Source of the DNA: Saccharomonospora cyanea NA-134
Lineage (GTDB): Bacteria; Actinomycetota; Actinomycetes; Mycobacteriales; Pseudonocardiaceae
DNA: 64,000 nt
Reading direction: 5' to 3'
Assembly: GCF_000244975.1 (NCBI RefSeq)
Contig: NZ_CM001440.1
Location: forward strand, 3,208,325-3,272,324
Shown here: piece after piece, positions 14,840 to 35,541 of the stretch
Layout of the letters: the number at the start of each line of letters is the position of its first letter
How positions within the stretch are numbered: the stretch's first letter is position 1
Notes under the pieces: model-generated
The model's input: only the letters and a program-made list of their open reading frames with translations
Database searches by the model: none
What the model was told of the DNA's origin: nothing
Position numbers and translations under genes: made by a program

Positions 14840-20341
<5,502 letters not shown>

Positions 20342-23855: not shown

Positions 23856-25055
23856 TCAGCCCTTCACACACACCACCTGCTTGAGGTGTGCCACCACCTC
23901 GACCAGGTCGGTCTGCGCCGCGATCACCGAATCGATGTCCTTGTACGCCGCGGGGATCTCGTCGACGACGCCGACGTCCTTACGGCACTCGACACCCCGC
24001 GTCTGCTCGGCGAGATCCGCGGCACTGAACTGCTTGCGCGCCTTCGTCCGGCTCATCCTGCGGCCCGCGCCGTGGGAGGCCGACCGGAAGGACGCCTCGT
24101 TGCCGAGTCCACGCACGATGTAGGAACCGGTGCCCATACTGCCGGGGATGATGCCGAGGTCACCCTCGGCCGCGCGGATCGCCCCCTTGCGGGTCACCAT
24201 CACGTCGACGCCGTCGTAGCGTTCCTCGGCGACGTAGTTGTGGTGACACGAGATCGGCTTCTCGAACCGCACACCCGGCACGGTTTCGGCCAACGCCCGT
24301 TGAACCAGCGCCAACATGGTGGCCCGGTTGCGCGCCGCGTACTCCTGCGCCCAGTACAGGTCGTGACGGTACGCGTCCATTTCCGGAGTGCCCGCCACGA
24401 ACACGGACAGGTCCGGGTCGGGCAGGTCGGCGTTGTGAGGCAACGACCTCGCGATGTCCATGTGGCGCTTGGCGAGTTCGTTGCCGATGCCCCGTGACCC
24501 CGAGTGAAGCATCAGCCACACCCGTCCCTCGTCCTCGCCACCCTGTTCGAGGCACACCTCGATGAAGTGGTTTCCGCCGCCGAGCGTGCCGACCTGCCGC
24601 CGCGCACGGTCGAGCAGCTTGTGCACCGAAGGGTGCAGTGACGAGAACGCCGACCAGAACGGGTTCCAGCCGCCGAGGCCGGGGACCTTCGCCGGATCCA
24701 CCGGCCTGCGGTGCAGATCGAAGCCCACCGGCACGGCGGCTTCGATCCGCCTCCGTAGCGTGCTCAGGTCGTCGGGCAGTTCCGAAGCGGTCAGCGAGGT
24801 GCGCACGGCCGACATCCCACAGCCGATGTCCACGCCCACGGCCGCGGGAGACACGGCGTCGCGCAGCGCGATGACGCTGCCGACGGTCGCGCCCTTTCCG
24901 TAGTGCACGTCGGGCATCACGGCGAGCCCGTGGATCCACGGCAGTGTGGTGACGTTACGGAGTTGCCGCATCGCGGCCTCCTCCACCGTCTCCGGGTCGG
25001 TCCACAGGCGAATGTCCGTCCTGGCGCCCTTGATCGTCGTGTACACGCTCACCAC
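23856..25055 (-). CDS. rtcB: RNA-splicing ligase RtcB family protein
   Basis: A 399-residue RtcB ligase, which joins 2',3'-cyclic phosphate (or 3'-phosphate) and 5'-OH RNA ends using GTP and Mn. Visible motifs are VDIGCGM with its metal cysteine, GGGNHFIEV, HSGSRGIGNELAKRH, SCHHNYV and the GMP-accepting histidine in SASHGAGRRMSR. All metal and guanylylation residues look intact. Tandem GTG codons at 25055/25052 are the likely start; an ATG further upstream has no family similarity. No archease gene is adjacent. Confidence 0.93.
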   Translation of the reverse strand: MVSVYTTIKGARTDIRLWTDPETVEEAAMRQLRNVTTLPWIHGLAVMPDVHYGKGATVGSVIALRDAVSPAAVGVDIGCGMSAVRTSLTASELPDDLSTLRRRIEAAVPVGFDLHRRPVDPAKVPGLGGWNPFWSAFSSLHPSVHKLLDRARRQVGTLGGGNHFIEVCLEQGGEDEGRVWLMLHSGSRGIGNELAKRHMDIARSLPHNADLPDPDLSVFVAGTPEMDAYRHDLYWAQEYAARNRATMLALVQRALAETVPGVRFEKPISCHHNYVAEERYDGVDVMVTRKGAIRAAEGDLGIIPGSMGTGSYIVRGLGNEASFRSASHGAGRRMSRTKARKQFSAADLAEQTRGVECRKDVGVVDEIPAAYKDIDSVIAAQTDLVEVVAHLKQVVCVKG

Positions 25056-25127
25056 CTCACGTCCGTTACGACGTTCACCATCCCCGATCGCCGCAGGCGA
25101 CGGCAACATCATTTCCGGACGCGAGTA

Positions 25128-25169
25128 CACCGCGTTCCCGAGGCGTCGGGTCGCCTCGGGAACGCGGTG
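25128..25169 (-). terminator. Perfect 18-bp hairpin ending the copper/sugar-oxidation operon
   Basis: CACCGCGTTCCCGAGGCG (25128-25145) and its exact complement CGCCTCGGGAACGCGGTG (25152-25169) enclose a 6-nt loop. The hairpin lies 43 nt past the stop of the cupredoxin gene. It is very stable, with no U-tract. It also insulates rtcB. Confidence 0.85.
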
Positions 25170-25211
25170 CTTGCGACGGGCACGGTCCGCGTACCCGCGG
25201 TGTGCCGACCG

Positions 25212-26810
25212 TTACCGGCTACGTGCGTGCTCCGCGGCTCGGAGGATGCGCCGCTTCTCCGCGTCGGAGATCACCTCGTCGGCGGCGAGCTGACCGGCCA
25301 GCTCCACCGCGCGCTCAGCCGGACCGCCGTGACCGTGGTGCCCGGTGTGTGAGGCGAGCATGTCGTTGATCGTGCAGCCGTTACCGGTGTCGACGTTCTC
25401 GACGGTGCTGTCGTGTCCACCGATCATCACCGTGGAGCGGATGTCCGAAGCCGGGCAGGCGTCACCCTCGGCGGCGACGACGGTGAACGTCACCTTGCCG
25501 TCCTCCGACCGGTTCCCCTCATGGTCGATGGCGTGGTAGAGCACCGTGTGCTCACCCGGGGTGTTGACCACGACCGGCTCCCCGTAAGGCGTGTAGGAAC
25601 CGCCGTCGAGGGAGTAGCGCAGGAACCGCACACCCGAGTCGGGGTCGTTGGCCGACAGCGACACCGTGGCGGAGTCCACGTACTTCCACTCCGAGTTCAT
25701 GGATCCGGTGAGCTGTACCGTGACCTCGGGCGGCGTGGTGTCCCCCTCGTCGACTTCCACGACGGTGAAGGTGACCGATCCCTCCTCGGAGGTGTTGCCC
25801 GCGTGGTCGGTGGCCCGGTATCGCACCGTGTGATCACCGGGCTCGGCCACCGTCAACGGCTCGGTGTAGGGCTTGAAACCGGCACCGTCGAGATCGTACT
25901 CGACGGTGTCCACACCGGACCCACTGTCCTCGGCCGTGACCTCCACCGTGGCGGAACCGACGTAGTTGCCGTCCCCGTCCCGGTCACCGCTGACCGAGGC
26001 GGACACCTCCGGAGGTGCCGTGTCGTTCGGATCACCCGCGACCACGGTGAAGGTCACCGATCCGGTCTCCGAGGTGTTGCCAGCGCCGTCGGTGGCTCGG
26101 TACTGCACGGTGTGGTCACCGGGCTCGGTGACGGTCACGGGTTCGGTGTAGGGCCGGAAACCGGTGTCGTCGAGCTCGTACTCGACACTCTCCACACCGG
26201 ACTCCGGGTCCTCGGCCGTGACCTTCACCGTGGCGGAACCGACGTAGTTGCCGTCCCCGTCCCGGTCACCGGCCACCTCCGAGGTCACCGAAGGTGGAGT
26301 GGTGTCCTCGCTACCGCCGCCCTCGGTGACCACGAGCACGCCCTGCATCTGCCCGTGTCCGGGGATCGTGCAGTAGTACCGGTAGGTCCCGGGTGAGAGC
26401 ACCACGTCCACCTCGTACCGGCCCCCGTTGGCGTCGAAGGGACTGGCGACGATGTTCAGTTGGACGTCGTTGTTGTGCTCCGGTGACGACGTGTCGAAGG
26501 TCAGCGTGTGCGACATGCCGGTCGTGTTGCCGGTGGCCGCGCTGTTCTCGAACACGATGGTCGTCGGCCCCGGCGCCGCCGTCGTCGGCGCGGAGGCGTA
26601 CTCCGTCACGCTGTCGTCCGCGGTCCAGGTGAGCACCTGCTGGGCCGAGGAGGAAGCTGTGTCCTCCCCGCCAGCCCCGCCAGCCCCCGGAACCGCACCC
26701 GCCGGCACCAGCCAGAGGGCGATCAACGAGGTGGCGAGGGCGGCGACCACCGCCCCGCGCACCGAACTCGTGCGTCGAGCCCGCAGGCTCGTCACTAACC
26801 GCCGGATCAT
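25212..26810 (-). CDS. Secreted cupredoxin with three OmpL47-type repeats and a C-terminal GCT module
   Basis: A 532-residue exported protein. Residues 1-40 are a Sec signal with Arg-rich start and a hydrophobic core ending VPAGAV. A type-1 copper cupredoxin (about 55-165) has ligands His in GMSHTL and Cys/His/Met in CTIPGHGQM. Three near-identical 94-residue beta domains follow (about 175-460; motif SGVxxVEYxLD, PGDHTVxYRATD). The last 70 residues share a module with the neighbouring ThuA protein: NGCTIND, then a helix with VISDAEKRRILRAAE. The ATG at 26810 has a TGGAGT site. Third gene of the operon; likely an extracellular electron carrier. Confidence 0.88.
   Translation of the reverse strand: MIRRLVTSLRARRTSSVRGAVVAALATSLIALWLVPAGAVPGAGGAGGEDTASSSAQQVLTWTADDSVTEYASAPTTAAPGPTTIVFENSAATGNTTGMSHTLTFDTSSPEHNNDVQLNIVASPFDANGGRYEVDVVLSPGTYRYYCTIPGHGQMQGVLVVTEGGGSEDTTPPSVTSEVAGDRDGDGNYVGSATVKVTAEDPESGVESVEYELDDTGFRPYTEPVTVTEPGDHTVQYRATDGAGNTSETGSVTFTVVAGDPNDTAPPEVSASVSGDRDGDGNYVGSATVEVTAEDSGSGVDTVEYDLDGAGFKPYTEPLTVAEPGDHTVRYRATDHAGNTSEEGSVTFTVVEVDEGDTTPPEVTVQLTGSMNSEWKYVDSATVSLSANDPDSGVRFLRYSLDGGSYTPYGEPVVVNTPGEHTVLYHAIDHEGNRSEDGKVTFTVVAAEGDACPASDIRSTVMIGGHDSTVENVDTGNGCTINDMLASHTGHHGHGGPAERAVELAGQLAADEVISDAEKRRILRAAEHARSR
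25470..26306 (-). repeat. Three in-frame 282-bp tandem repeats
   Basis: The anchor GTGGCGGA recurs at 25666, 25948 and 26230, exactly 282 bp (94 codons) apart. The two right-hand copies are identical over about 40 bp after the anchor; the left copy has diverged. They encode the OmpL47-like domains of the cupredoxin protein and suggest recent duplication. Confidence 0.9.
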
Positions 26811-26839
26811 CGTTGACTCCACTTCTCGGGCCGCGCGTC

Positions 26840-29800
26840 TCACAGTTCCCGCACCCGGATGTTGCGGAACTCGATCACATCGTCACCACCGTGGTTCTGG
26901 AGCCCGACGTACCCGTCGACGAACTGGCGCAGACCGGTCGCCGGGTCGCCGTCCCGGGAGGACTGCTTGCCCGGGGTGTTGTCGAACTCGTTGATCACCT
27001 TGCCGTTGCGGATGATCGTGTAGTGCTGCCCCTCCACACGGATCTCGTAGTCGTTCCACTGCTCCTTCGGTGTCACACCGGCGCGCCCGTGGTAGACCTG
27101 GTCGAAGTTGTAGACCGACCCGGTCTTCTGCGGCTCGCCCGACTTCCCGTCGTAGATCTGGATCTCATGTCCACAGTAGATCGCGACCCACGCCTGCGAG
27201 TCCTTGGCGGAACCACGCGTTCCACAACTGGTCGCAGGCCTGTCCTTCAGCGGAGTCCGCGGGTCGGGGAACCGCACGAACACACCGCTGTTGGCACGAT
27301 GATCGCCCGGTGCGACGTCCCGGAACTGCAGCTTCAGCGAGAAGTCCCCGAACGCCTTCTTCGAGTACCACAGCATGCCGAGCCCACCGTCGGCGCGCAG
27401 GGACCCGTCCGGCTGCAGCTCGAACTCGCCACTGGGTGCCTGTTGCCAGCCCTGCAGCGACTGCGGGGTCCCGTCGAAGAGCGCCACGTAACCGGTGTCA
27501 CCGTCGGCACCGATCCCCGAGTTCCTGGCCGCCTTGACGAGGGTGTTCGCCTCGGCCTTGCTGATGACGCCGTCCTGATCGAGCTTCTTGGTGACGTCCC
27601 GGACGTGGGCGACGAACGCGCCGTTGTCCGACCAGCCGCTCTCGTCGTCGATCAGGTCGTCGACCGTGCAGCCTCCCGCGGCCTCGTGGTTGGTCACACC
27701 CGTGTCGTCGTCCCGGTAGCGAACCGTGCGGCCGGTGTCCGGCACCGCGCACTCCACCGCCACGTCGGTCTTCACCGTGGCCTTCTCCCCGTCGGCGTAG
27801 GTCACCGTCAGGGTCGCGGTGTAGTTGCCGACCTCGGCATAGGTGTGCCTGGGGTTGGCCTCGGTCGAGGTGGCACCGTCACCGAAGTCCCACTTGTAGG
27901 ACACGCCACCGGAACGCGCTCCGTTGAAACCGATCGTCAGCGGCTTGTTCTGCACCGTGTACGCCTGCGCCGCCGGAGCCGGTGTCGCCGGACCGCCGTG
28001 GTAGGTCACCCGGACGAGCTTCTGGTTGTCTGTCAGACTGAAGAAACCGCCGCCGTAGTCGAGCAGGTACAACGCACCGTCCGGACCGAACTCGGCGTCC
28101 ATCCACTGCTGCAACTCGTTCGGTCCCCCGCCACCGGGGATGATCTTCCGGAGGTCCTCGGCGAACGGCGGCGGAGTCCCGTCGTCCACCGTGGCCGGGT
28201 CGACGGTCACCGCGATGCGGTTGTTCGCGTTCGACTGGTCCCCGATGAACCACTTGCCGTCCCAGTACGACGGCCACGCCACACCGCTTCCGGTGTCCAC
28301 TTCGGAGCTGTAGTACGTGGGGCCCGACATGACCGCCTGGCCGCCGCCCTTCAGGTACGGCCACGTGTACGTGGCATCGTCCAGCTCGTAGGTCGGCACA
28401 CCGCTGCCGTCCTCCCGGTCGGGGAACACCGGACCGCCGCCCTGCGGCGAGTACCAGATCATGTTGTTCCTGACCGGCGGCAGGTCCTCCAGGCCGGTGT
28501 TGCGGGGCGAGGTGTTCTTCGGGTTGTCACAGTCGTACCAGCCCGTCAGCACGTTCGCGTCCTCGTTGCTGCGGTCGCGGTACGGCTGCTTGTCGCCCAT
28601 GCAGTACGGCCAACCCTGGTTGCCCGCGGAGGTGATGATCGTGGCGTGTTCGTACTTCGCCGGCCCCAGGTCGGGGTTCGGCTCGAACGCGTCCGGACCC
28701 ACCCAGGCCGCGGTCAGCCAGTCGTGCTTGGCGTCGATCTGGATGCGAGCGGGGTTGCGCACACCCATGACGTAGATCTCGGGGCGGGTCTTGTCACCGG
28801 GGTCCTCGGCCTCGGGGAACAGGTTGCCCTCGGGGATCGTGTAGGTCCCGTCGTCCTCGGGATGGATCCGCAGGATCTTGCCGTTGAGGTCGTTGGTGTT
28901 ACCGGAGGTGCGGCGGGCGTCCTGGAACGACACGCCCTTGTACTCCTTGGTCCAGTTGTTTCCCGAGTAGCCGTCGGACCCCTGGGAGGAGTTGCTGTCA
29001 CCGGTGGCGATGTAGAGGTTGCCCTCGTCGTCGAACGCCATCCCACCGCCCGCGTGGCAGCACGAGTGGATCTGCGTGTCCCACGCCAGCAGGTCCTTGC
29101 GGCTGTCCAGGTCGATGGTGGCGGTGTCGTGGTCGTAGGTGAACCGCGAGACCGTACGCTCGCCGATACGCTTGTCGGTGTCGATCGACTCGTACGGCAT
29201 CCAGTACACGTACATCCAGCCGTTGGAGGCGAAGTCCGGGTCGAGCTCCATGCCGAGCAGGCCCTCCTCGGTCTTGACGAGCTCGTCACCGCTGCCGCGG
29301 TTGCCGAACACGTCGAGGGAGGCGAGCTGCTTCACCCGCTTCGTCTCCGGGTCCCACTGGTGGATGGTCCCGCAGCCGAGGCCGACGTTCTCGTCCTCCC
29401 AGCTCGGGATCGGGCCCGTGGCGCACGCGGCCTTGCCGACGTAGAAGACCGTGCCGTCGTCGGCGATGGTCAGGCCGTGCGGCTCACCGATCTGGTTGAG
29501 CCTTCCGGGGAGGTTCTCCTCGGTCAACCGCTCGATCTCGTAGTTCGACGCGATGGTGGCCTGGCAGTCACCGCGGACCAGTCCGGTGGTCCACTCGAGA
29601 GCGCCGAGCAGATGCCCTCGGAAGTTCTTCTCGCCGTAGCTGTCCTCGGTGCCACCCATGGCGGTGTAGAACGACCGGCCGCCCTCGTAGTCGTGGCACC
29701 ACGAGATCGGGTGGAAAGGCCCGTTGGCGGTGTTGCCGGGGTCGTAGGTGTGCTCCTGGACCTGCGCGACGGTGTGGACCTCACCGACCGGATTCGTCTC

Positions 29801-30856
29801 CCAGTTCAGCCACTTGTCGGTGCGCTTCCACGTCAGCGGAAGACCCTTGTTGGCCGGGTGCTGGCGGTCGACGACACTGACCACCGCTTCCTGGGCCCGG
29901 ATCTCCTCCGGCGGGGTCTCGTTCCCCGTGTAGAGCTCGAACTCGGCGAGCTGAGTGGCGTCCTCGCCGTCGTTCGCCGTGATGTTCAGCCGGTAGTGGG
30001 CGTAGGCGGTGTCGTTGTCGAAGCGGTACTGCTTCGGCTGGAACCGGTTCGGGAAGTCCTCCCCGGACCGGGAGTCCAGGTCCGTCCAGGTCTGCCCGTC
30101 GTTCGAGCCCTGCAGCGTCCAGTCCTTCGGGTCCCGGCCGGGGAAGTCGTTCGCCGAGACCAGCGCGTAGTGCGACACGGCCGCGGGTTCGGCGAGTTCG
30201 ACGCTCAACCACGCCGAGCTGTCGAACGCCAGCCACTTGGTGTCGTCCTTGCCGTCCACCGCGTGTGCCGCGGACTCGTTGGGGGCGTTCTCCCCGCTGG
30301 CGCTGACGTTCGCGACCTCGGCGGGGGTGGGGCGGGCGCCCGCGGGTCGCGCGCCGACGAGGCCGGTGAACCATTCCGACCGCTCCTGCGCCCTCGCCGC
30401 GTCGCGGATGCCGAGGAAGCCGCCACCGTTACCGATGTAGTCCCGCAGGGCCGCTTCCTGCGACTGGTCCAGTTCGGAGCCGTGGGCCGAGAGGAAGACC
30501 ACACCGCGGTAGTCACTCAGGTTCTCGCTCGTGAACGCGGCCGGGTCGGTCGTGACGTCCACCTCGATACCGCTCACGGCGCCGAGTTCACCGATGGCCT
30601 CGGCGGCGCGTTCCACCGGGTCGTCCTGTTCGTCGGCGGCACCGTGGAAGACGAGCACCGACGCCGCCGCCTCGGCGGTGTCCGCGGTCTTCCCGGGCTT
30701 CGCGGCCTGTTCCTGGAGCGCGGGCGCTCCGAAACTCGGGGCCGACGCGAGTCCGAAGACCAGCGCCATCCCCGTGGCGACCGCCATCGTGCGCCGCAAC
30801 GGCGTCGGTCTCGCACGCCCGTTGCGGGGTAGAGCTGACAATCTCCTTCGACCCAT
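26840..30856 (-). CDS. Secreted ThuA / sorbosone dehydrogenase / PKD / DUF1080 protein with inserted F5/8C domain
   Basis: A 1338-residue exported protein. The order is: signal (1-45); first half of a ThuA glutamine-amidotransferase-like fold (67-176, VLVFHGA); an F5/8C discoidin-like domain (177-324, LQGSNDGQTW) inserted in it; second ThuA half (325-431, HPISWCHDYEGGRSFYTAMGG); glucose/sorbosone dehydrogenase propeller (about 432-950, CCHAGGGMAFD, GVRNPARI); PKD (about 960-1033, YKWDFGDG); GCT module (about 1034-1117); DUF1080/3-keto-disaccharide hydrolase-like domain (1118-end). The propeller is of the soluble PQQ sugar-dehydrogenase type. The ATG at 30856 has GAGGAG. Middle gene of the operon, 29-43 nt gaps. 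Sugar substrate unknown. Confidence 0.92.
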   Translation of the reverse strand: MGRRRLSALPRNGRARPTPLRRTMAVATGMALVFGLASAPSFGAPALQEQAAKPGKTADTAEAAASVLVFHGAADEQDDPVERAAEAIGELGAVSGIEVDVTTDPAAFTSENLSDYRGVVFLSAHGSELDQSQEAALRDYIGNGGGFLGIRDAARAQERSEWFTGLVGARPAGARPTPAEVANVSASGENAPNESAAHAVDGKDDTKWLAFDSSAWLSVELAEPAAVSHYALVSANDFPGRDPKDWTLQGSNDGQTWTDLDSRSGEDFPNRFQPKQYRFDNDTAYAHYRLNITANDGEDATQLAEFELYTGNETPPEEIRAQEAVVSVVDRQHPANKGLPLTWKRTDKWLNWETNPVGEVHTVAQVQEHTYDPGNTANGPFHPISWCHDYEGGRSFYTAMGGTEDSYGEKNFRGHLLGALEWTTGLVRGDCQATIASNYEIERLTEENLPGRLNQIGEPHGLTIADDGTVFYVGKAACATGPIPSWEDENVGLGCGTIHQWDPETKRVKQLASLDVFGNRGSGDELVKTEEGLLGMELDPDFASNGWMYVYWMPYESIDTDKRIGERTVSRFTYDHDTATIDLDSRKDLLAWDTQIHSCCHAGGGMAFDDEGNLYIATGDSNSSQGSDGYSGNNWTKEYKGVSFQDARRTSGNTNDLNGKILRIHPEDDGTYTIPEGNLFPEAEDPGDKTRPEIYVMGVRNPARIQIDAKHDWLTAAWVGPDAFEPNPDLGPAKYEHATIITSAGNQGWPYCMGDKQPYRDRSNEDANVLTGWYDCDNPKNTSPRNTGLEDLPPVRNNMIWYSPQGGGPVFPDREDGSGVPTYELDDATYTWPYLKGGGQAVMSGPTYYSSEVDTGSGVAWPSYWDGKWFIGDQSNANNRIAVTVDPATVDDGTPPPFAEDLRKIIPGGGGPNELQQWMDAEFGPDGALYLLDYGGGFFSLTDNQKLVRVTYHGGPATPAPAAQAYTVQNKPLTIGFNGARSGGVSYKWDFGDGATSTEANPRHTYAEVGNYTATLTVTYADGEKATVKTDVAVECAVPDTGRTVRYRDDDTGVTNHEAAGGCTVDDLIDDESGWSDNGAFVAHVRDVTKKLDQDGVISKAEANTLVKAARNSGIGADGDTGYVALFDGTPQSLQGWQQAPSGEFELQPDGSLRADGGLGMLWYSKKAFGDFSLKLQFRDVAPGDHRANSGVFVRFPDPRTPLKDRPATSCGTRGSAKDSQAWVAIYCGHEIQIYDGKSGEPQKTGSVYNFDQVYHGRAGVTPKEQWNDYEIRVEGQHYTIIRNGKVINEFDNTPGKQSSRDGDPATGLRQFVDGYVGLQNHGGDDVIEFRNIRVREL

Positions 30857-30899
30857 CTCTACTCCTCACTGAAAGGGTGTTGCAGGCCAGTTCGACATG

Positions 30900-31931
30900 T
30901 CAGCGACCGGTGGCCGTGTGATGGCCACCGCCGTGCTGGTGGTAGCGGTCGATCGCCTCCTGAGCGCCCTCGGGCATGCTGCCGTCGGCGTTGCGGACGA
31001 GGAAGACACCGGACATCCCGCCTTCGGAGTGGCTCTGCACGTGGCAGTGGAACATCCAGGCGCCCGGCCCCACGCCGTCACCGGCGATCACCTGGAACCC
31101 GAACGAGTCGCCAGGGTTCAGGTCGCGGTTGTCGACGATGCGGCTCGGGTCGTCCGGGCCCTGGAGGTAGCCGGTGCGGTTCTCGGCCCAGCGGTGGGCG
31201 TGCAGGTGGAAGGTGTGGAAGTTGCTGCCGTGCCCGATGGCGATGAACTCCACGCGTTCCCCGAGGTTGGCCTCCAGCACGGGAACGTGCGGCGCCATCT
31301 TGTTGTTGATCGTCATGTCGTTGAAGACGACCGTGTGCTGCCGGTCCGGCAGGAGGTCGCCCTCTCGCCGCACGACGAGCGCGCCGTAGAGTCCCTTCGC
31401 GATGCCCTCGGTGCCGTGCGGGCTTCCGAGAGCGTGGTCGTGGTAGTGCCAGTAGCCCGCGCTGCCGGGTCGCCAGAAGCCGTCGGGCCCCTGTGACTGC
31501 GGACGTGTCCGCCATACGTAGGTGCGCGTCTCGCCGGGTTCGTTGAACGAGTCGTTCATCGGGCTGCCGTCGGAGGCGGTGTCGTAGTCCACACCGTGCG
31601 GGTGGATGGACAGCCGACGGTCGGTGTTGTTGACGAGTTCGATCTCGAGGGTGTCACCCTCCCAGATCTCCAGAGTCGGCCCGGGAACGGTCGCCTTGCC
31701 CGGCTCCAGTCCGTAACCGTAGAGGCCGCTGGGAAGCTCCTCGGCGTAGACGGTGATGCGCTTGGTCTCTCCCTGGCCACCCGGCTTGCTCCTGCCCGGA
31801 GCCGCCGCGGCGGAGGGGCCGCCGAGCGCCGCGGCGGCCACGGGTGCGACCACACCGGCCGCGGCACCGGCCAGCATCGAACGACGGGACACCTGTCCTA
31901 CCCGGGGGAACCGTGCCTGCCTACCAGTCAT
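30900..31931 (-). CDS. Two-domain multicopper oxidase (small laccase type), Tat-exported
   Basis: A 343-residue oxidase with a twin-arginine signal ([12 protein letters not shown]). All copper-binding motifs are intact: [20 protein letters not shown] and [12 protein letters not shown], the last giving Cys, two His and the axial Met of the type-1 site plus the type-3 His. The length fits two-domain laccases that form trimers, reducing oxygen to water while oxidising phenols, metals or a protein donor. First gene of a three-gene operon; the ThuA protein starts 43 nt downstream. The ATG at 31931 precedes the signal. Physiological donor unknown; the cupredoxin two genes away is a candidate. Confidence 0.93.
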
Positions 31932-31976
31932 GGGTCTGTGCCTCCAGCGACATGGGTTTCCGTCGGGACGGTAAAC

Positions 31977-32029
31977 ACTTCTGACGTGGACGTAAATATC
32001 TACGGTCAAAAACGTCCAACTTCCGACGT
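31977..32029. promoter_or_regulatory. Nested repeat array upstream of the multicopper oxidase operon
   Basis: Direct repeats ACTTCTGACGT (31977-31987) and ACTTCCGACGT (32019-32029) are 42 bp apart. Inside them, TGGACGT (31987-31993) and ACGTCCA (32012-32018) form perfect inverted arms. The stretch is AT-rich for this genome and lies 46-98 nt before the oxidase start, where a promoter and operator would be. It does not resemble the CsoR operator I know; the regulator is unknown. Confidence 0.5.
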
Positions 32030-32088
32030 AAAAAAGCAGAAGTCGCTAGGCCAAACGGTCTAGACCACACAGCCGATCGCCACACGAA

Positions 32089-32148: not shown

Positions 32149-35100
32149 TCAGCCGAACGCGCGCTCCTTCCAGGACGCGATCTCGGAAACGGACAGACTC
32201 TCGGCGATCACTGCCATGCGGTCGACCACGCCCGTCAGTCGTTGACCACCGTTCTGGTCCGCCGCGAACCGCAGTTCCCGGGTCGCACAGCCGTTGATCC
32301 CGTCGTCGGGCACGCGCGCCGAACCGGCCCGTTCACCGTCGACGTACACCACGATCTCCCCGTTGTCACTCATCGTGACCACAAGGTCGACGAAGCGGCC
32401 GGTCGGCACCACCGCGTCGGTCGTCACGTTACGGCCCGCCCCGATGAACCGCACGGTGTTCGCGGGGGTCAGGTCCACCAGCACCCCGTCGTCACCGGGA
32501 TCGCCACTGGGCTGCCAGTCGAAGAGCCTGCGATACGAGCCCGACGACGTCACCTTGACTTCGGCGGCGAAGGTCGCCTCCCGCAGGAAACCGAGCGTGA
32601 TGGGCTCCGACCGGAGATGGGTTCGCCCGTCGAGCACGAGCCCGCTCTCGGTCGGGGCCTCCTCGGTGTACGTGACCTCGCCCTCCACCCGCGCGTCCCG
32701 CCCGTACGGCGAGGCGTCGGTCATCACCGCCCCCTTCTCGGGGTCCCATGCCACCAGCAGCACACCCCCGGACGCTGGTGTGCACGGCGGCAGAGGTTCG
32801 ATGTGGACGATTCGGGCCGCCGAGGCCTGCCAGCCGTCGCCGTGCAGCACCGCACGCACCCTCGCCGTGTCGCCTTCCCCCGCCTTCGGTACGACCTCGA
32901 ACGACACGGTGGTCGACCGTCCGGCCTTGACGGGCCGCAGCGCGTGCTCGGCGGGCGTGACCGTCCACCCCTCCGGCACGGTGAGCCCGAGCCTGCTCGC
33001 CGGCACCGTGCGGTCGGCGGCCGCCACCGTGGCCGTGACGGTGAACGGCGTGCCGTCCTCCACCCGGTCGGGCGCGGACAGCGCCACCTCGACGCGGGTC
33101 GTCGCCACGTACGTGCGTCCGGCCTTCGCGTCGATCGTGATCTCCTGGCCGTCGCGCTTCACGTCCACGGTCCGGCCGGTCTCGGCGTCGACGACACGGA
33201 ACCGGCCGGCGAACAGTCCACTGCGGACCTTGAGCTGACCGTCCCGCCCGGCTTCCAGCGCGACCCGCGTCGCCACTCCGTTCGCCCAGTCGACGTCCAC
33301 GGTGACGTCACCACGCGCCCGCAGCCCCGACACCGAACCCGTGCTCCACTCACCCGGTAGCGCGGGCAGCACGTCGACGACACCCCGGTGGCTCTGCACC
33401 AGCATCTCCGCGACGCCCGCCGTGGCACCGAAGTTCCCGTCGATCTGGAACGGCGGATGCGTGTCCCACAGGTTCGGCAGCGTGCTGTGGGACAGCAGCT
33501 CCGACAGCATCTTGTGGGCGTGGTCACCGTCGAGCAGCCGCGCCCAGAAGTTGATCTTCCATGCCTTACTCCATCCCGTTCCGCCGTCACCACGGGCGAT
33601 CAGGGACCTTTCGGCGGCCTCAACGTACTCGGGCTCGGAGTACGGGTCGATCTGGCGTCCCGGGTGCAGGGCGAACAGGTGCGACACGTGCCGGTGCTGG
33701 TTGTTCGGGTCGTCCCAGTCCTCCTTCCACTCCTGCAACTGGCCCCACGAGCCGACCCGCAGTCCCGGGTCGAGTTCGGCGAGTGTGCCCGCGAGCTCGG
33801 AGCGGAACGCCTCCTCGCCGCCGACCAGCTCGGCGGCCTCGGCGGTGCTGGTGAGCAGGTCCCACACGATCTGCTGCGACATCGACGCCCCTGCCGAGAA
33901 GTCACCCTGCTCGGGCGAGTAGCTGGGGTTCACCACGAGCTTGCCGTCACGGGGATCGGTGACGAGTTCGTCGATCCAGAACTGCGACAGCGACTTCAGC
34001 ATCGGGTAGGCGCGCTCCCGGAGGAACGTCTCGTCCCGAGTGAACAGGTAGTGCTCCCAGTAGCTCTGGGCCAGCCACGCCCCCGCCTCAGGGAACCAGA
34101 ACGCCGTCGCCCAGTCGTGCACACCCGTGTAGCCGAAGGGCGTGGTCTCGTTGTGCACCACCCAGCCCCGGTTGTCGAACATCTCCCTCGCCGTGACCTC
34201 GCCGGGTGCCACCAGCGAGTCGACGTAGTCGAACAGCGGGTCCGTCGTCTCGGAGAGGTTCGTGACCTCGGCTGGCCAGTAGTTCATCTGCAGGTTGATG
34301 TTGACGTGGTAGTCGGCGCTCCACGGTGGGGACGTCGAGTCGTTCCACACCCCCTGCAGGTTCGCGGGCAACGAGCCGGGGCGCGACGACGCGATGAGGA
34401 GATACCGCCCGTACTGGAAGTACAGTGCCTCCAGCGCCCTCCGCTCCTCGGCGGCGAGTCCACCGTCGCGGTAGCGGGCGAGTAGTTCGTCCGTTGGCAG
34501 GTCGGGCATCCGCTGGCCGAGGTCGAGCGAGACCCGGTCGAACAGCTCGCGGTGGTCGGCGACGTGCGCGGCGCGCAGCGCGTCGTAGCCTTCGGCCACC
34601 GCCGCGTCGACGCGTTCGGTGACGGCGGCATGCGGGTCGTCACCGCGGTAGGCCGGGTACTCGTCGGAGTAGTCGGTGCCCGCCGCGAGCACGAGTGTCA
34701 TCGTGTCGGCGTCGGCCACGGTGACCGATCCGTCGGGGTTGTCGGTGCGTGAACCCCCTTCGGTGAGCACCTGGAGCTGGGCCTCGTAGCGCAGGCCGTT
34801 GTCGTCGAGCGCGCCCGCGAAGGTGATGCGGCCGTCCTTCGCGGTGACGTTCTTCGACCGATTGTCAGGCGCGGTGACACCCACCGTGACGTCCACCGCC
34901 CCCGTCTCGTCACCCGAGAAGCGCGCGACGATCACGTCATCGGCCGCGGTGGCGAAGTACTCGCGGGTGTGGCGGACACCGTCGGCCTCGTACGACACGC
35001 CCGCCACGGCGTCGGCGATGTCGAGGTACCGCCGGTAGTCGGTGACCTCCTGCGGTTCGGCTCCGCTGACGCGCACCTCGCCGAAGGTCTGGTACGCGCC

Positions 35101-35541
35101 GTAACCCTGTTTCGGCTGCCCGAGCTTGCTCGCGACCCACTCCGGGTCGACCCGCTGCTCGGCGTCGATGCGTTCCTGGACCTCCTCGATGGCTCCCGGT
35201 CGCGGCTCCTTCCAGTTGCCGAAGTCGTACCCGGCCGACCCGGGTCCGCCCGTCCACAGCGTCTTCTCGTTGAACTGCAGCCGCTCGGTGGCCACCCCGC
35301 CGAACACGCCCGCGCCGAGTGCCCCGCTGCCGATCGGGAGAATCTCCGACTCCCAGTCGGAGGCGGGTTCGTCGTACCAGAGAGTGAGGTCCTCGTGGGA
35401 CTCCCGGACGTCGGAGGTCTCGGCACCGGCGGTCATACCGAGTGCCGGGAGACCCGCCGTTGCCACGGTCAACGTCGTCGCTGTCACGGCAGCGCGGTAC
35501 CACGGTGGTCTGGTTGGTCGTGCACGTCCTCGTTCGATCAT
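32149..35541 (-). CDS. Secreted GH95 alpha-L-fucosidase with NEW3-like and LamG-type domains
   Basis: A 1130-residue exported glycosidase. A signal (about 15-40, ending GMTAGAETS) precedes the GH95 beta-sandwich (from LWYDEPASDWESEILPIGSGALGAGVFGG) and the alpha/alpha barrel. The barrel holds the catalytic-site asparagines in VNINLQMNYWPAE and the aspartate in IDGNFGATAG, matching the unusual Asn-activated Asp base of this family. A NEW3-like beta domain (about 850-940) and a concanavalin/LamG-like C-terminus (about 960-1130) probably bind glycan. GH95 enzymes remove 1,2-linked alpha-L-fucose (some act on galactose). The ATG at 35541 has a GAGGGGA site. Monocistronic. Confidence 0.92.
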   Translation of the reverse strand: MIERGRARPTRPPWYRAAVTATTLTVATAGLPALGMTAGAETSDVRESHEDLTLWYDEPASDWESEILPIGSGALGAGVFGGVATERLQFNEKTLWTGGPGSAGYDFGNWKEPRPGAIEEVQERIDAEQRVDPEWVASKLGQPKQGYGAYQTFGEVRVSGAEPQEVTDYRRYLDIADAVAGVSYEADGVRHTREYFATAADDVIVARFSGDETGAVDVTVGVTAPDNRSKNVTAKDGRITFAGALDDNGLRYEAQLQVLTEGGSRTDNPDGSVTVADADTMTLVLAAGTDYSDEYPAYRGDDPHAAVTERVDAAVAEGYDALRAAHVADHRELFDRVSLDLGQRMPDLPTDELLARYRDGGLAAEERRALEALYFQYGRYLLIASSRPGSLPANLQGVWNDSTSPPWSADYHVNINLQMNYWPAEVTNLSETTDPLFDYVDSLVAPGEVTAREMFDNRGWVVHNETTPFGYTGVHDWATAFWFPEAGAWLAQSYWEHYLFTRDETFLRERAYPMLKSLSQFWIDELVTDPRDGKLVVNPSYSPEQGDFSAGASMSQQIVWDLLTSTAEAAELVGGEEAFRSELAGTLAELDPGLRVGSWGQLQEWKEDWDDPNNQHRHVSHLFALHPGRQIDPYSEPEYVEAAERSLIARGDGGTGWSKAWKINFWARLLDGDHAHKMLSELLSHSTLPNLWDTHPPFQIDGNFGATAGVAEMLVQSHRGVVDVLPALPGEWSTGSVSGLRARGDVTVDVDWANGVATRVALEAGRDGQLKVRSGLFAGRFRVVDAETGRTVDVKRDGQEITIDAKAGRTYVATTRVEVALSAPDRVEDGTPFTVTATVAAADRTVPASRLGLTVPEGWTVTPAEHALRPVKAGRSTTVSFEVVPKAGEGDTARVRAVLHGDGWQASAARIVHIEPLPPCTPASGGVLLVAWDPEKGAVMTDASPYGRDARVEGEVTYTEEAPTESGLVLDGRTHLRSEPITLGFLREATFAAEVKVTSSGSYRRLFDWQPSGDPGDDGVLVDLTPANTVRFIGAGRNVTTDAVVPTGRFVDLVVTMSDNGEIVVYVDGERAGSARVPDDGINGCATRELRFAADQNGGQRLTGVVDRMAVIAESLSVSEIASWKERAFG

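Follow-up and report, generated by a model that had tools for sequence, protein, structure and literature searches.

Small laccases of the SLAC type serve as structural and biotechnological models, and the question raised by the locus described here is where such an enzyme naturally obtains its electrons. The locus is a three-gene operon of Saccharomonospora cyanea NA-134, analyzed within a window of 64,000 nucleotides (the whole stretch of DNA examined; contig NZ_CM001440.1, positions 3,208,325 to 3,272,324), and it encodes a small laccase, a secreted dehydrogenase fusion, and a secreted cupredoxin protein. The laccase and the fusion, with the cupredoxin where it was counted, are inherited together almost without exception and nearly always as adjacent genes. 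Of all the results, this tie between SLAC and the dehydrogenase is both the firmest and the most useful, an almost perfect phylogenetic association that offers a testable candidate for the natural electron donor of the small laccase. That the trio forms one functional unit is well supported, and its best explanation, to which we give slightly better than even chances, is an oxidative glycosidase that works outside the cell and disposes of its electrons by a route of its own.

The minus-strand operon had been claimed in an annotation made earlier from the sequence alone, referred to here as the first-pass annotation, and was confirmed with intergenic gaps of 43 and 29 nt. The genes and their domains are as follows.

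30900-31931, minus strand: laccase gene (343 amino acids), a SLAC-type two-domain (type B) multicopper oxidase with PF07731 and PF07732 and the twin-arginine signal SRRSML
26840-30856, minus strand: dehydrogenase fusion gene (1338 amino acids), a secreted protein with, by Pfam and in this order, ThuA (split), F5/8C, GSDH propeller, PKD, shared module, and 3-keto-disaccharide hydrolase
29588-30664, minus strand: ThuA domain in two halves, residues about 65-170 (by similarity) and 320-423; PF06283, 189.6 bits in two stretches
residues 184-306 of the fusion, minus strand: discoidin (F5/8C) insert that splits ThuA; PF00754, 51.2 bits
27962-29581, minus strand: propeller of the pyrroloquinoline quinone (PQQ) type, residues 426-965; GSDH, PF07995
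27506-27751, minus strand: two-cysteine module of about 80 amino acids that precedes the hydrolase domain; a second copy ends the cupredoxin protein
26849-27493, minus strand: 3-keto-disaccharide hydrolase domain (DUF1080), residues 1122-1336; PF06439, 121.6 bits, cut-off 26.8
25212-26810, minus strand: cupredoxin-protein gene (532 amino acids from an ATG; a longer GTG reading to 26843 is possible), a secreted protein with a type-1 copper domain, three OmpL47-type immunoglobulin-like repeats, and the shared module at 25215-25454
26328-26633, minus strand: cupredoxin (plastocyanin/azurin) domain; PF00127, 26.3 bits, cut-off 21.2

Co-occurrence was assessed in three genome samples using cut-offs of our own choosing: E-values of 1e-150 for dehydrogenase orthologues in the family samples and rows at or below 1e-240 in the class sample, 1e-60 (family sample) or 1e-50 (class sample) for the laccase, and 1e-15 for the cupredoxin. 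The genomes of these samples share ancestry, and Fisher values are descriptive; organism names are those of the record titles. Within the family sample (200 genomes), the set with a laccase and the set with a dehydrogenase orthologue are the same 64 genomes, with no such match in the other 136, and the cupredoxin is present in 63 of the 64 and none elsewhere. In 62 of the 64 the laccase gene is no more than 2.5 kb from the dehydrogenase gene, in 62 the cupredoxin gene is no more than 1 kb away, and in 61 both apply. G024, with its laccase at a distance of 443 kb, and G196, with the dehydrogenase on a separate contig, still retain all three genes. The class sample (296 genomes) has a dehydrogenase orthologue in 41 of 42 laccase genomes, and every one of the 41 orthologues has a laccase less than 1 kb away. 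Laccase and dehydrogenase occur in an identical set of 27 genomes in the Streptomyces-family sample (150 genomes), always within 1.2 kb, and in none of the remaining 123. Distinct laccase genomes across the three samples number 114. Within three genera (g22, g26, and g45) some species have the pair and others lack it, so that the two genes were gained or lost in concert there.

A separate set of named loci comprised 40 matches, of which 37 are true relatives; L084-L086 matched the discoidin domain only and were dropped. The genera represented include Saccharomonospora, Micromonospora, Jiangella, Nonomuraea, Promicromonospora, Isoptericola, Actinokineospora, Kibdelosporangium, and Streptomyces. 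Of the 37 loci, 33 have a laccase no farther than 2.5 kb from the dehydrogenase, and 32 have both this laccase and a cupredoxin (the latter within 5 kb). The four loci with no laccase nearby are L049 and L050, both Saccharomonospora, L073, a 12-kb contig from a metagenome-derived genome, and L082, whose match sits at a contig edge. Three gene orders occur, with the laccase first on the same strand, divergent, or last. Given the conserved synteny, the arrangement is far beyond chance. The first-pass annotation had named missing linkage in related genomes as the observation that would speak against its proposal; the check was run, and linkage is strongly kept. No other neighbor is as widely kept, since clustering of simple gene calls (open reading frames of at least 100 amino acids) gave nothing above 7 of 39 loci; one family at that level is found in L051 (positions 15336-16352), directly after the cupredoxin gene. 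A conserved regulator was also considered and rejected, as the LacI gene that adjoins the trio in one Streptomyces plasmid (L091) has close relatives near the trio only in L077 and L081 among the 37 loci and the window, other regulators not having been looked for. The open-access literature, covered by the titles and abstract openings of the matches listed, with subscription papers and preprints outside its scope, describes neither the three-gene unit nor a cupredoxin partner of SLAC, which is weak evidence of absence.

The hydrolase domain is present at all 37 named loci and changes its carrier. It is located on the dehydrogenase protein only in 27, on the cupredoxin protein only in seven (L077-L083, all Streptomyces), and on both proteins in three (L061, L065, and L075). 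In L081, for instance, the cupredoxin protein matches query residues 976-1338. Seven of eight Streptomyces loci carry the domain on the cupredoxin protein, the exception being L056, where it is on the dehydrogenase. That either partner can carry the domain speaks for a common site of action of dehydrogenase, cupredoxin, and hydrolase. The trio of L091 is located on plasmid p1 of Streptomyces fungicidicus (927 kb); there the annotation derived from RefSeq names the cupredoxin-hydrolase protein a 'family 16 glycoside hydrolase' and its neighbors a 'ThuA domain-containing protein' and a 'multicopper oxidase domain-containing protein'.

By its sequence, the window oxidase is orthologous to the small laccase SLAC. 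It contains Cu-oxidase_3 and Cu-oxidase_2 domains, the two-domain composition, and is close to solved SLACs; its best matches in the PDB are all small or two-domain laccases (3t9w at E 1.9e-131, 9ix9, 8aip, and 3cg8). One Streptomyces locus (L083) encodes the laccase orthologous to the SLAC of PDB 3cg8 (647 bits, query residues 12-326). The earlier claim that all copper ligands are present held: H110, H112, H164, H166, H239, H242, H244, H295, C296, H297, H301, and M306, the twelve residues expected, are invariant in 34 of 34 sequences, with their assignment to the T1 site and the eight trinuclear histidines following SLAC numbering. A loose RRx[FLMVI] motif is present near the N-terminus in 31 of the 33 named loci having a laccase. 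The likeness to SLAC (3cg8) thus comprises the sequence family, the copper ligands, and the Tat-type signal; the difference is that the literature, in the passages at hand, treats SLAC as a phenol oxidase, and here it shares a conserved unit of three genes with dehydrogenase and cupredoxin. The physiological roles of two-domain oxidases are still termed poorly understood in a passage of a 2026 study (PMC13151041). The cupredoxin was likewise correctly described as a type-1 copper protein, with ligands H101, C147, H152, and M155 invariant in 35 of 35 sequences.

The fusion protein had been recognized earlier as a secreted 1338-residue protein with a propeller. The propeller was confirmed, but the ThuA, discoidin (F5/8C), PKD, and 3-keto-disaccharide hydrolase domains had been overlooked. 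The propeller model (predicted local distance difference test score 85.9) has soluble aldose and glucose (sugar) dehydrogenases as its top fold matches. Residues H601, R700, N701, G731, and P732 correspond to H144, R228, N229, G247, and P248 of soluble glucose dehydrogenase (sGDH) and are invariant in the 29 propellers aligned, out of 70 (69 loci and the window). In passages of PMC6881810, His144, Arg228, and Asn229 of sGDH are catalytic and Gly247-Pro248 belong to the calcium loop. PQQ use by the propeller is plausible on these residues. The model of the hydrolase domain matches, among others, structures titled 3-keto-glycoside eliminase/hydratase, and many of its polar residues are invariant in all 33 copies aligned, out of 70 at hand with the window included. 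By family membership and model, the DUF1080 domain is a putative hydrolase, eliminase, or hydratase.

The genome encodes four further propeller fusions (L009-L012), three of them with ThuA, in various combinations with CBM6, PKD, DUF1080, and FIMAH domains. Two have Gfo/Idh/MocA genes as neighbors, one a xylose-isomerase-like TIM-barrel gene with a sugar-type transporter, and one a sugar-type transporter, the transporters being identified by eye. No laccase or cupredoxin was detected in the 15-19 kb fetched around each paralogue. These fusions possibly constitute a secreted 3-keto-sugar repertoire.

The chemistry and the electron path of the trio we infer as follows. The propeller, loaded with PQQ that is made by the cell or obtained from outside, would oxidize a secondary hydroxyl, probably at C3, of a glycoside outside the cell, and the DUF1080 domain, with or without ThuA, would cleave the resulting 3-keto-glycoside. 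Electrons would pass from the propeller to the type-1 copper of the cupredoxin and on to the laccase, which would reduce O2 to water. The role of SLAC would then be that of the terminal oxidase of a sugar-oxidizing chain and not primarily that of a lignin or phenol oxidase. The bolder generalization, that actinobacterial small laccases are terminal oxidases rather than lignin enzymes and belong to a hitherto undescribed extracellular oxidative glycosidase, made up of a PQQ propeller, DUF1080/ThuA, and a cupredoxin with O2 as final oxidant, is a serious possibility that we rate somewhat below even. The first-pass annotation had proposed a chain from sugar through PQQ and cupredoxin to oxygen; its parts are intact by the residues tested, but the chain linking them is a prediction, and the domains that point to 3-keto sugars had been missed.

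Domain content is what points to C3. According to passages of PMC9007349, DUF1080 covers a hydrolase of 3-ketotrehalose and one proposed for 3'-ketolactose that partners with a periplasmic dehydrogenase, and the thuAB genes work via 3-keto derivatives according to a passage of PMC7404187 (citing Ampomah 2013). Given the ties of ThuA and DUF1080 to 3-keto sugars and the neighborhoods of the paralogues, the most parsimonious account is that a glycoside is first oxidized and the keto-glycoside then cleaved. Together the two domains would favor 3-keto-glycoside cleavage over simple oxidation of an aldose.

Several observations weigh against an oxidative glycosidase. The boldest step is the first, as we know of no PQQ propeller that oxidizes at C3. 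The column that we take, by eye, to align with Lys377 of sGDH holds serine in the window protein and arginine in many orthologues, and the region of the C-terminal PQQ-binding arginines failed to align with sGDH. Related soluble glucose dehydrogenases oxidize sugars to lactones at C1, not C3 (PMC6881810, in part), and the C3 oxidations in the literature passages are performed by flavoenzymes or other dehydrogenases. PQQ synthesis as an obligate companion was rejected: of the 64 genomes that carry the operon, 43 have PqqE, as do 90 of the 136 that lack the operon (Fisher p = 1.0), and the 21 operon genomes without PqqE have no PqqC above the cut-off, with weak matches in two. PQQ must therefore often be external, or the propeller uses something else. 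An external supply would seem to parallel the fungal AA12 enzymes. The S. cyanea genome itself has both PqqE and PqqC, in a synthesis cluster at L017:6875-9826 with PqqB and PqqD neighbors recognized by eye only.

The genomic association has its own exceptions. One genome of the family sample (G185) and a named locus probably of the same species (L047) have no cupredoxin match. Another genome (G215) has laccases and no dehydrogenase orthologue; at the start of one contig a pair of laccase genes is next to a cupredoxin, and the stretches fetched around its three laccases contain no dehydrogenase. Extra laccases are located on other contigs in G093, G147, G227, G286, and G340, and the co-occurrence is partly due to shared ancestry. 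Type-B two-domain oxidases have their T1 copper facing a tunnel within the trimer (PMC13151041, in part); such a tunnel may be awkward for a protein donor and could hinder it.

Aromatic redox cycling has been proposed for fungal sugar dehydrogenases, and the same could be envisaged here: the laccase would turn phenols or lignin fragments into quinones or radicals, and these would be reduced again by the sugar dehydrogenase by way of the cupredoxin, the sugar being merely the reductant. Such a cycle explains the co-occurrence of laccase and dehydrogenase equally well, and the T1 tunnel fits small molecules better than a protein. Literature passages also describe phenolic oxidation by SLAC-type enzymes and a Streptomyces laccase mutant studied for lignin solubilization. 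It is nevertheless fairly unlikely. ThuA and DUF1080 are left without a role, as is the DUF1080 domain that some lineages have on the cupredoxin protein, and with quinones as the electron carriers there is no need for a cupredoxin, which is kept in 63 of 64 family genomes. A related two-domain enzyme is, moreover, deemed an unlikely efficient degrader of lignin polymer in vivo in a passage of PMC13151041.

The trio could instead be a plain extracellular aldose dehydrogenase that acts at C1 and respires to oxygen, with ThuA, DUF1080, PKD, and discoidin domains that merely bind carbohydrate. The nearest fold matches of the propeller fit such an enzyme, and the lectin-like fold of DUF1080 is common to binding modules such as the carbohydrate-binding module CBM66 and plant lectins, which score slightly below the eliminase/hydratase structures among the fold matches. 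The PF06439 score (121.6 bits against 26.8) and the polar residues invariant in 33 of 33 copies argue against a mere binding role, and ThuA and DUF1080 jointly, with paralogues located beside Gfo/Idh/MocA genes, suggest 3-keto chemistry; we consider this explanation improbable. Supply of oxidant or electrons to another system (priming of a lytic polysaccharide monooxygenase, or homeostasis of peroxide or copper, the laccase acting as protection from copper or oxygen) is very unlikely, because no further gene is widely kept by the trio and the next best family reaches 7 of 39 loci, even though all three proteins appear secreted and two have copper sites, a fungal PQQ dehydrogenase bears a cytochrome partner domain in the passages at hand, and copper binding or metal homeostasis is among the suggested roles of two-domain oxidases (PMC13151041, in part).

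Taken as an extracellular oxidative glycosidase, the trio resembles several known systems in part. LacABC, the lactose 3-dehydrogenase of Caulobacter, includes flavin and cytochrome parts. None of its subunits is encoded in the operon, the only part of the genome searched for them, which holds the propeller fusion, cupredoxin, and laccase only. Both systems would couple extracytoplasmic glycoside oxidation to a (proposed) DUF1080 hydrolase, which in Caulobacter acts on 3-ketolactose; passages of PMC9007349 describe a membrane-bound three-component dehydrogenase and separate proteins, in contrast with the fused PQQ-type propeller, cupredoxin, and laccase described here. The soluble PQQ sugar dehydrogenases (sGDH, 1cru/1cq1; Asd, 3das and 2g8s; and 3a9g) share with the window protein the propeller fold, the catalytic histidine, the Arg-Asn pair, and the Gly-Pro calcium loop. 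The window propeller differs in its fusion to ThuA, discoidin, PKD, and DUF1080 domains and, in the alignment by eye, in a non-basic Lys377 equivalent.

The rhizobial trehalose pathway of ThuA and ThuB offers a further comparison. ThuB is an NAD-dependent, cytoplasmic dehydrogenase, and hence of another kind, and the window ThuA is secreted and fused to the propeller. The likeness consists of the ThuA family and 3-keto-disaccharide intermediates (PMC7404187, in part). The fungal AA12 pyranose dehydrogenase of Coprinopsis, as presented in passages of PMC6881789 and PMC6881810, joins a PQQ propeller to a redox partner domain of its own, and it uses PQQ although PQQ is described as made by prokaryotes. 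There a haem b domain takes the place of the cupredoxin, and DUF1080 and a laccase gene partner go unmentioned in those passages. If the proposed chain is true, oxidative (3-keto) glycoside cleavage gains a copper- and oxygen-linked extracellular version in soil actinobacteria.

The module of about 80 amino acids shared by the fusion and the cupredoxin protein was overlooked in the first reading. One more copy is present in the paralogue L012. A known Pfam family was rejected as its identity, the two copies tested having no relevant match, and a small alignment did not match the module to the FIMAH domains present in two paralogues, no profile comparison having been made.

The surroundings of the operon include the following features.

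31932-32060, minus strand: operon upstream region, AT-richer; likeness among several Saccharomonospora loci judged by eye
32149-35541: gene for a secreted GH95-type glycosidase whose C-terminal domain is lectin-like (Pfam)
25128-25169, minus strand: hairpin 3' of the last gene, with an 18-bp Watson-Crick stem and a 6-nt loop and without a T run

An AT-rich, repeat-bearing promoter had been described upstream of the operon. The laccase-proximal half of the 217 bp upstream does reach 48-58% AT (50-base windows), but exact direct repeats reach only 8 nt at best (TTTACGTC, twice), and a promoter scan gave no sigma-70-type match in the operon upstream region. The region appears by eye to be kept in several Saccharomonospora relatives: positions 31932-32060 contain GTC[AG]GAAGT-like repeats and AGATATTTACG, alike in several loci of the genus, and this region is a possible operator of the operon. 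The hairpin described as a perfect terminator has its 18-bp stem but no T run and was unlisted by the terminator scan. A hairpin separates the glycosidase gene from the operon. The secreted fucosidase noted upstream corresponds to this GH95 gene, which is present, but it is not a conserved neighbor and was rejected as a member of the system, with no GH95 match in 40 loci (flanks of at most 10 kb). The window contains no Rfam family at gathering score and no tRNA.

Among the relatives, the expected cupredoxin site after the dehydrogenase in Saccharomonospora halophila (L047:14626-16900) is occupied by a CRISPR-like array of about 30 repeats, mostly 61 nt apart. The dehydrogenase genes of L057, titled Rhodococcus rhodnii, and L076, Kibdelosporangium aridum, are 95% identical in DNA; the Rhodococcus title is perhaps wrong, or a transfer was recent. 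The closest named relatives of the fusion protein are in Saccharomonospora, with 85% identity to Saccharomonospora sp. NB11. The S. cyanea genome is a single contig of 5.4 Mb, and downstream of the operon (23856-25130, minus strand) it has a gene whose translation, read by eye, resembles an RtcB-type RNA ligase.

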